Shown piece after piece: positions 54,647-56,853 of a DNA stretch of 64,000 nucleotides. A model generated the notes under the pieces. That model was not told the DNA's origin, did not search any database, and saw nothing but the letters and a program-made list of their open reading frames with translations. The DNA comes from a bacterium (GTDB lineage: Bacteria > Patescibacteriota > Microgenomatia > UBA1406 > GWC2-37-13), in NCBI GenBank assembly GCA_029573715.1, contig JAKQDR010000165.1, forward strand, positions 88,766 through 152,765, in the 5' to 3' direction. The position numbers and the translations under genes are program-made. Positions within the stretch are counted from its first letter, which is position 1. Every line of letters starts with the position of its first letter.

Positions 54647-56098
54647 TTATGTGCGAATTACCTGAAGAACGTATTGATGCAATGCATCAATAGGAATACG
54701 TTCTTGCTTCATTGTATCACGATCGCGCACTGTCACGGTTTTTTCTTCAAGTGAAGAATAGTCTACAGTGACACACAGAGGTGTTCCAATTTCGTCTTGT
54801 CGTCGATACATCTTGCCAATGTTCCCTGCATCATCAAATTCTGTCACCACATCTTGTGCTAAATCTCGATATATCGATTGAGCAAGGGTTCTGAGCCTTT
54901 CGTCTTTTTGAAGGGGAAATACCGCAACCTTAACCGGCGCTAGTGAAGGTTTCAACCGTAAAAGCGTACGACTTTTGCCTTCGCCAAGATCTTCCTGTAC
55001 ATATGCATCAACAAGCGCCATTAAAAATAGTCTGTTCACTCCAACTGCCGGCTCTATGACATGCGGCACAAACTTGCGACCGGTGGCAGAGTCCACATAC
55101 TCAAGCGACTTTTTGGAATGATGCATATGGGCCATCAAATCAAAATCGGTTCGATACGCAAGGCCCCACAGCTCCTTCCATCCGAAGGGAAAATGATAAT
55201 CCAAATCGAATGTTTCTTTACTGTAGTGAGTGCGTTCCTTGTCGGTATGCCTGCGCCATCGAAGGTTTTCCGCATGAATACCAAGGGTGTTGGTCACAAA
55301 ACGCATCATGTCGGTTTTCCATGCCTCAAGAAGTTCGTGCCAGTCTGAATGCTCAGGATCAAAGAAATACTCAATCTCCGCCTGTTCCAATTCAAACGTG
55401 CGAAAAACAAACTGTCCTTGAGTAATCTCGTTTCGAAAACTCTTGCCAATCTGTCCAACACCAAATGGGAGTTTTACCCTGCAAGAATCAGTGATCTGCT
55501 TGAAATTTGCGAATATACCTTGGGCGGTTTCACCCCGCAAATACACTTTCGATTTTTCTCCGGCGACAGTTCCCAATTCCGTTTCAAAAAGAAGGTTGAA
55601 GGGCTTTGGCTCAGTCAGCTCATTACCATCGGGAGAGGTTATTTTGCATAATTTAATAAACTCTGCCATCTCTTTCATGTCCATGCTTTCCACAGTCGCT
55701 TTGGCGATTTTATTTATTGCAACATCTAGCACAGGATCACTCTTGGATGGGTCTACTCGTGTCGTGGACATGTATCCTTTAACCCAAGCGTCAATCAAAT
55801 GATCTGCCCGGTATCGCTTGTGTGTCTTTTTGTCCTCAACCAGAGGATCGCTAAATGAGCCGACATGCCCAGACGCCACCCAGGTAGTTGGGTGTTGAAT
55901 TATTTGCGAATCAAGACCAACCATGTTCGGACGCTGTTGAATAAACGTTTTCCACCATAAATCGCGGATATTTTTCATAAGCTCCGCACCATATGGACCA
56001 TAGTCGTATGAGTTTGCGATTCCTCCATAAATTTCAGATGTCGGGTAGACAAACCCTCTCCGCTTTGTAAAGGCAACGATTGTTTCAAGAGTAACCAT
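54647..56098 (-). CDS. glyS: Glycyl-tRNA synthetase (dimeric class II type)
   Basis: GlyRS charges tRNA-Gly. This is the single-chain alpha2 form of 483 residues, not the alpha/beta bacterial form: it begins with ETIVAFTKRRGFVYPTSEIY and has GGIANSYDYGPYG, the motif 2 FRNEITQGQFVFRTFELEQ, ARL-like EPAVGVNRLFL (motif 3) and a C-terminal anticodon-binding domain (KVAVFPLQKDERLRTLA). The ATG at 56098 follows a T-box leader. A weak internal -10 between terminator and ATG may allow leaderless expression too. Confidence 0.95.
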   Translation of the reverse strand: MVTLETIVAFTKRRGFVYPTSEIYGGIANSYDYGPYGAELMKNIRDLWWKTFIQQRPNMVGLDSQIIQHPTTWVASGHVGSFSDPLVEDKKTHKRYRADHLIDAWVKGYMSTTRVDPSKSDPVLDVAINKIAKATVESMDMKEMAEFIKLCKITSPDGNELTEPKPFNLLFETELGTVAGEKSKVYLRGETAQGIFANFKQITDSCRVKLPFGVGQIGKSFRNEITQGQFVFRTFELEQAEIEYFFDPEHSDWHELLEAWKTDMMRFVTNTLGIHAENLRWRRHTDKERTHYSKETFDLDYHFPFGWKELWGLAYRTDFDLMAHMHHSKKSLEYVDSATGRKFVPHVIEPAVGVNRLFLMALVDAYVQEDLGEGKSRTLLRLKPSLAPVKVAVFPLQKDERLRTLAQSIYRDLAQDVVTEFDDAGNIGKMYRRQDEIGTPLCVTVDYSSLEEKTVTVRDRDTMKQERIPIDALHQYVLQVIRT

Positions 56099-56141: not shown

Positions 56142-56294
56142 AAAAAGCCGTCCTGAATCAGCCAAAATGCTGAGTCGGGACGGCCATTTGATGTGGTCGT
56201 GGTTCCACCCGAATTGTCAGACACATATATCTGACCACTCTTTTTGTCAGTTGTGCTCCGCAAGAGCCAACCTTGCCTCACCGCGCATCTGACA
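56142..56294 (-). promoter_or_regulatory. T-box riboswitch of glyS
   Basis: On the minus strand the leader starts near 56294. A compact Stem I is closed by TGTCAG (56289-56294) and CTGACA (56245-56250), with a candidate specifier GGA (glycine) in its 3' internal loop at 56257-56259. A GTCAGA/TCTGAC hairpin follows, then the conserved T-box GGGTGGAACCACG (56198-56210). Last comes a terminator GCCGTCC/GGACGGC with an inner stem and TTTTT (56142-56186). Uncharged tRNA-Gly would pair with the T-box and specifier and prevent termination. Confidence 0.9.
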
Positions 56295-56300
56295 GTGCAC

Positions 56301-56309
56301 ATTATAACA
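56301..56309 (-). promoter_or_regulatory. Extended -10 of the T-box leader
   Basis: Minus-strand TGT-TATAAT (hexamer 56301-56306) places the start at about 56294, the first base of T-box Stem I. Confidence 0.75.
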
Positions 56310-56322
56310 CGCTCATCATTGT

Positions 56323-56853
56323 TTATAACAAAAAGCGAACTTTTTCATCGACCAACTCCCGAACGATATCATGCGCATCATCGTACGTTTCGATTTGCTC
56401 AACCCCATATCCGAGTTCTGCATATATATCCGCAAAAAACGAGAAAAATACGCGATCGTAGTGCAATTGAGTTTCGTTAAGATGGATAAGTGCCCGCACA
56501 AGCATATCGTAGACAGTTGGTTCAGCCTGCTCAAGCGGGAGAAGTCTGTCTAAAACCATACATAAGTTATACAAAACACGAACCCTATCTGTTGATTCCT
56601 TCAACATGGAAAATCCCGATATAAGCTCAGTGGTGTTGACATACCATGAGCCACCCGTATGCAAAGAAGCATCTATCCTTACCAAGTTTCCTGTCTGCAA
56701 ATGAGCAGACCTTCGTGAGGTGATTTTTTGTCCTCCCTTAAGAATGTGATGTATCTTGCCTTTCTGACGAGTAAACAGGGTGACCGACTGAGTCATCTCC
56801 AGAAGACTGTGTTTTTTGAGCACAAAACTATCAAATGATGCGCGTACTGCCAT
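56323..56853 (-). CDS. recO: DNA repair protein RecO, short form
   Basis: RecO helps load RecA on gapped DNA. The 176-residue protein has the N-terminal OB fold (DSFVLKKHSLLEMTQSVTLF, GKIHHILKGGQKITSRR) and the helical region VRVLYNLCMVLDRLLPLEQA. It ends well before the usual ~240 residues and lacks the cysteines of the RecO zinc finger. An extended -10 (TGC-TATAGT, 56863-56871) gives a 3-nt leader. It lies directly upstream of the glyS leader on the same strand. Confidence 0.8.
   Translation of the reverse strand: MAVRASFDSFVLKKHSLLEMTQSVTLFTRQKGKIHHILKGGQKITSRRSAHLQTGNLVRIDASLHTGGSWYVNTTELISGFSMLKESTDRVRVLYNLCMVLDRLLPLEQAEPTVYDMLVRALIHLNETQLHYDRVFFSFFADIYAELGYGVEQIETYDDAHDIVRELVDEKVRFLL

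Follow-up and report, generated by a model that had tools for sequence, protein, structure and literature searches.

A short T-box leader upstream of glyS

We analyzed a window of 64,000 nucleotides from the genome of an uncultured, ultra-small bacterium of the Patescibacteria, and found that the leader of its glyS gene is very probably a T-box attenuator that responds to tRNA-Gly and has a short Stem I. The leader is encoded on the minus strand, with a RecO-family gene on its 5' side and glyS on its 3' side, in a 1.79-Mb MAG (92% complete, 4.8% contamination), and is the sole match to the T-box model RF00230 in the whole host genome. The product of glyS was identified as glycine--tRNA ligase by an NCBIfam search (NF003211, 599.9 bits against a cut-off of 312). 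The RF00230 match extends from 56390 to 56173 (minus strand) and scores 39.7 bits, with an E-value of 1.5e-7 in a search of the region and 1.7e-7 in a search of the whole genome. The match is significant by E-value and falls under the RF00230 gathering score of 93 bits, and a default Rfam scan at that threshold omits the leader. A score below the curated cut-off is expected because Stem I is truncated. The model has a long Stem I and the window a short one, so that the 5' part of the alignment is drawn out over sequence upstream of the promoter; it is Stem III and the antiterminator that account for the score. The first-pass annotation had proposed that glyS in this Patescibacteria genome is preceded by a glycine T-box, with the T-box sequence, Stem I, a hairpin and a terminator in the correct order; the covariance match and the identity of glyS agree with the proposal, and every part was located at the coordinates given there, on the minus strand. 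Its description of a Stem I of about 50 nt, without room for distal loops that bind the tRNA elbow, also holds: the apical part of Stem I is a 7-nt loop, and the distal double T-loop is absent.

From 5' to 3', the minus strand carries an extended -10 element, Stem I, AAAAGAGUG, Stem III, the dinucleotide AA, the antiterminator, the terminator and glyS (Table 1). A promoter scan of the leader region gave no good candidate for a -35 element, and no Shine-Dalgarno sequence was seen ahead of the glyS ATG. Stem II and the IIA/B pseudoknot are absent, Stem I running directly into AAAAGAGUG and Stem III. Stem I has a folding energy of -19.3 kcal/mol; for the whole leader of 202 nt the value is -73.7 kcal/mol, a z of -5.2 relative to dinucleotide shuffles. 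Read most simply, the kink-turn bulge of Stem I is 5 nt long; alternatively it is 3 nt long and the helix next to it contains a C-A mismatch. Stem III has both the RRRNG motif on its 5' side and AA on its 3' side (GAGUG-GUCAGA...UCUGAC-AA). In the antiterminator, a 7-nt bulge of the UGGNACC type lies between two helices (CGGG-UGGAACC-ACG...CGU-CCCG); the basal pair of the A2 helix is A-U rather than the usual G-U, as in 3 of 18 glycine sequences. The string GGGTGGAACCACG has a single exact occurrence in the window (56198-56210, minus strand), and taken alone, with two mismatches allowed, it would lack significance.

Table 1. Features of the glyS leader and the flanking genes, in positions of the window
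Feature	Position	Strand	Remarks
glyS, glycine--tRNA ligase	54647..56098	(-)	start ATG 56098; in-frame TTG 56107
Intrinsic terminator	56142..56184	(-)	hairpin 56147-56184, then UUUUU 56142-56146
Antiterminator CGGGUGGAACCACG...CGUCCCG	56176..56211	(-)	A1 CGGG/CCCG; A2 ACG/CGU
T-box bulge UGGAACC	56201-56207	(-)	UGGA at 56204-56207
Stem III GUCAGAUAUAUGUGUCUGAC	56216..56235	(-)	from fold and comparative pairing
Purine string GAGUG (RRRNG motif), 5' of Stem III	56236..56240	(-)	partner AA at 56214-56215
Short Stem I	56245..56294	(-)	from fold; basal UGUCAG (56289-56294)/CUGACA (56245-56250); upper GCAAG/CUUGC; apical loop
Predicted kink-turn GA, 3' strand	56257..56258	(-)	within GGAG, the 'GGA specifier' of the first-pass annotation; layout recurs in ~40 Patescibacteria T-boxes
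Putative specifier codon GGC	56266..56268	(-)	in 7-nt apical loop GUUGGCU (56265-56271)
Predicted kink-turn GA, 5' strand	56278..56279	(-)	within GGUGAG; layout recurs in ~40 Patescibacteria T-boxes
Extended -10 promoter element TGTTATAAT	56301..56309	(-)	read directly
RecO-family gene, upstream of leader	56323..56853	(-)	TIGR00613, 59.6 bits, cut-off 48.7

Predicted switching

The terminator and the antiterminator are mutually exclusive, because the 5' arm of the terminator hairpin contains the 3' strands of both antiterminator helices, A1 and A2. The host genome encodes tRNA-Gly(GCC), whose discriminator base is U (U73, the base after the acceptor stem) and is complementary to the A of the bulge sequence UGGA. 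The parts of the predicted switch, their order and pairing, the comparative support for the specifier described below and the matching tRNA can all be read from sequence, and for tRNA binding, discrimination of charging and switching we infer a course from the T-box literature. RNA polymerase would start just upstream of Stem I, and the kink-turn hairpin of Stem I would offer GGC in its apical loop to the GCC anticodon of tRNA-Gly. The 3' end of an uncharged tRNA-Gly (the discriminator U, then CCA) would pair with UGGA in the antiterminator bulge, and the purine string at Stem III would brace the tRNA-bound antiterminator. In this bound state the CGGG/CCCG helix would be held, the terminator blocked and glyS transcribed. 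Charged tRNA-Gly would be unable to dock, allowing the terminator to form and transcription to stop. Points that count against this reading are the covariance score under the curated cut-off, the U that follows GGC, the A-U pair at the base of A2 and the form of the kink-turn bulge.

A working T-box could instead control translation, since translational leaders are where the short type of Stem I is known, and some relatives (L193, L299, L301 and L208) are without a terminator and appear, by reading, to hide a Shine-Dalgarno site. We judge this very improbable for the window, where there is no Shine-Dalgarno sequence and where a hairpin of -25.1 kcal/mol is followed by five U residues, the U run ending 43 nt from the glyS ATG.

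Assignment of the specifier

Other Patescibacteria leaders with a T-box core share the Stem I layout of the window: helix, 3-nt bulge, GA, helix, loop of 5-9 nt, helix, GA, helix. By its sequence pattern, this layout is that of a kink-turn with an apical loop. We scored Stem I with a hand-written descriptor that picks up only clear cases, and at least one of its matches is doubtful (L197, ahead of alaS); gene identities came from NCBIfam or BLAST, and some labels rest on partial ORFs. The apical loops contain AUC ahead of ileS, CCC or CCU ahead of proS and proB, GAC or AAC ahead of aspS, GUC ahead of valS, UAC ahead of tyrS, UGG ahead of trpE, and GGC ahead of glyS and glyA. Of 39 Patescibacteria T-boxes with a short Stem I, 38 have a loop codon, in any frame, for the amino acid of the gene that follows; 20,000 permutations of the gene labels gave a mean of 14 and a maximum of 25 such fits. 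The sole loop that does not fit is the doubtful match L197. The fitting codon is at one fixed position in 30 of the 39, and the maximum in 20,000 label permutations was 16. The sequence UGGA is present in all 14 glycine T-boxes with a short Stem I and in none of the 25 others (Fisher 7e-11). A kink-turn hairpin with a GGC loop equally good as that of the window was found in 2 of 5000 shuffles.

Based on these comparisons, the putative specifier codon of the window is GGC in the apical loop GUUGGCU. The base 3' of GGC is U rather than the usual purine; U is also found at this position in L003 and L334. The first-pass annotation had instead named GGA as a candidate specifier. With the GGA 3' of the hairpin in this role, the leader would respond to tRNA-Gly(UCC). 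The triplet does encode glycine, the next base is a purine, and the host genome does encode tRNA-Gly(UCC), again with discriminator U. However, the same GGA or TGA lies 3' of the hairpin in T-boxes ahead of proline, isoleucine, aspartate, arginine and tyrosine genes. Since this strand is constant in T-boxes for different amino acids, it must be structural, the 3' strand of the kink-turn, rather than a codon. We therefore rejected GGA as the specifier, and a reading of tRNA-Gly(UCC) through it has hardly any probability left.

Two side observations concern other specifiers. In L313 and L339 the loop contains the asparagine codon AAC ahead of aspartate--tRNA ligase genes (of the tRNA-Asn type in L313), as expected if AspRS also charges tRNA-Asn. 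The leader of a thrS gene (L231) has ACC in the apical loop together with UGGA, and fits the tRNA-Thr(GGU) of the window genome, which has discriminator U.

Conservation in relatives

The one same-genus genome that we compared (G001) keeps the T-box/glyS layout, with a RecO-like C-terminus upstream by reading, and in the same-genus sequence L003 the gene order, also by reading, is that of the window. We considered the possibility that the leader is contaminating Firmicutes DNA, and rejected it: G001 shares both the gene order and the leader, and leaders of this type are found again in other parts of the phylum. The apical loop, kink-turn, purine string, T-box and terminator are all kept in the same-genus genome, and the sequences of the Stem I basal helix and of Stem III are changed with pairing retained (the basal helix of L003 is UUGUUGC/GCGACAA).

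Paired changes extend to glycine T-boxes more widely. Among 18 of them, 11 of the 17 predicted pairs in Stem III and the antiterminator have compensatory double changes, and the two strands of Stem III pair at 99% within their own sequence compared to 51% when cross-paired between sequences. The RRRNG purine string lies 5' of Stem III in 16 of the 18. The gap that follows Stem I is 37-55 nt in all 14 glycine cases and 53-152 nt in the others. A MAFFT alignment was inconsistent with the structure in Stem I, and Stem I was therefore scored with the descriptor.

It is unlikely that the leader is a decayed T-box in which the tRNA response was lost and the terminator acts as a constant attenuator. 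The short Stem I, the lack of Stem II and the low covariance score would fit decay, as would the presence of a T-box at glyS in only some relatives. Decay would not account for the retention, in the same-genus genome, of the loop with the specifier, the kink-turn, the purine string, the T-box bulge and the two alternative folds, for helices there that change by paired substitutions, or for the recurrence of the same layout in distant Patescibacteria.

A motif near ACUGGANAUCAU recurs in the Stem III apical loop of about ten glycine T-boxes (L181, L189, L193, L208, L299, L301, L302, L303, L325 and L139) and is absent from the window. This motif may possibly contact the tRNA and stand in for Stem II or for the elbow motif.

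T-boxes in other Patescibacteria

The first-pass annotation did not regard T-boxes as usual in Patescibacteria, a view that our survey does not uphold. With RF00230 and a threshold of E <= 0.01 per genome, matches were found in 196 of 373 genomes of the class (18 above the gathering cut-off), 132 of 379 genomes of the phylum (13 above it) and 36 of 72 genomes of the family; approximately 4 matches per 373 genomes are expected by chance at this threshold. Under the same filters 5 of 14 controls matched (B. subtilis, L. lactis, C. glutamicum and two Deinococcota), and there was no match in the E. coli, Bacteroides, cyanobacterial, Thermotoga and archaeal controls. By these searches, T-boxes are common in Patescibacteria. 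Some have a long Stem I and about 40 in the sample that we fetched are clearly of the short type; the sample was chosen partly for short matches, and counts in it are not frequencies. A simple search found a terminator in 32 of 43 short-type or glycine T-boxes (one doubtful), and several others of these appear to hide a Shine-Dalgarno site.

Several downstream genes and arrangements differ from that in the window. Glycine T-boxes also precede glyA (serine hydroxymethyltransferase; L193 and L299) and purU (formyltetrahydrofolate deformylase; L189 and L302), so the glycine regulon of the group would extend beyond glyS. Glycine T-boxes occur in tandem in L208 and L139/L169, and the second copy in L208 seems to hide a Shine-Dalgarno site instead of forming a terminator. 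Patescibacteria are usually regarded as poor in amino-acid synthesis. Eight T-boxes (L117, L198, L162, L165, L270, L194, L195 and L180) lie ahead of biosynthesis genes, and the genes of this kind behind Patescibacteria T-boxes are argG (by motif), argH, trpD, trpE, proB, proC and lysX.

Significance

We found no report linking T-boxes with Patescibacteria among the open-access papers that we searched. A 2024 overview of Patescibacteria names riboswitches only as tools to introduce (PMC11665869). A 2008 survey, in which no Patescibacteria were included, found T-boxes in a small number of phyla, with Firmicutes predominating, and did not settle whether they originated in Firmicutes or were lost elsewhere (PMC2494555). 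The wide presence of T-boxes in the deep, host-dependent Patescibacteria bears on that question. It also suggests that, reduced as they are, these bacteria keep track of their amino-acid supply by way of tRNA charging.

It seems fairly probable that Patescibacteria use T-boxes widely and that much of this use is of a minimal type, with a short Stem I, an apical specifier and a transcription terminator and, for glycine, without Stem II. Two stated rules are put to the test by this architecture: that control of transcription by a T-box requires a long Stem I, and that Stem II is indispensable where Stem I is truncated. If this view is correct, the minimal glycine type would rank as the smallest complete transcription switch known to sense tRNA, and it would do so with neither elbow contact nor Stem II.

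Comparison with known T-boxes

The leader resembles the glyQS T-boxes of Bacillus, Geobacillus and Oceanobacillus (RF00230) in its GGC, UGGA bulge, Stem III purine string and exclusive terminator, in the lack of Stem II, and in having a glycyl-tRNA synthetase gene downstream. Strong GGC:GCC pairing is the published reason that glycine T-boxes can dispense with Stem II (PMC7583486). Unlike the glyQS type, the window leader lacks the long Stem I with its elbow-binding double T-loop; its own Stem I measures about 50 nt and has the specifier at the apex.

According to a review, T-boxes with a short Stem I present the specifier in an apical loop (PMC7583486). The short ('ultrashort') Stem I of actinobacterial ileS leaders (Nocardia, Mycobacterium) shares with the window the kink-turn, the apical specifier and the lack of an elbow-binding motif (PMC7583486). 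In contrast, those leaders are translational and have Stem II and IIA/B, whereas the window leader ends in a terminator, lacks Stem II and is specific for glycine. TBDB mentions class I sequences with a truncated Stem I (PMC7778990), so parts of the architecture in the window may already be in databases unremarked.

Within the phylum, the glyS leaders of Dojkabacteria (L036, L038 and L039) have, by reading, the same gene, GGC and UGGA, but appear to keep a long Stem I. The kink-turn hairpin with apical GGC or GGA, together with UGGA and a downstream glyS, is shared with L046, L087 and L099, which are outside Patescibacteria, in a few MAGs assigned to Clostridia and Bacilli. What sets the window T-box apart, and is clear from its sequence, is that a short Stem I and a terminator go together while Stem II is lacking.
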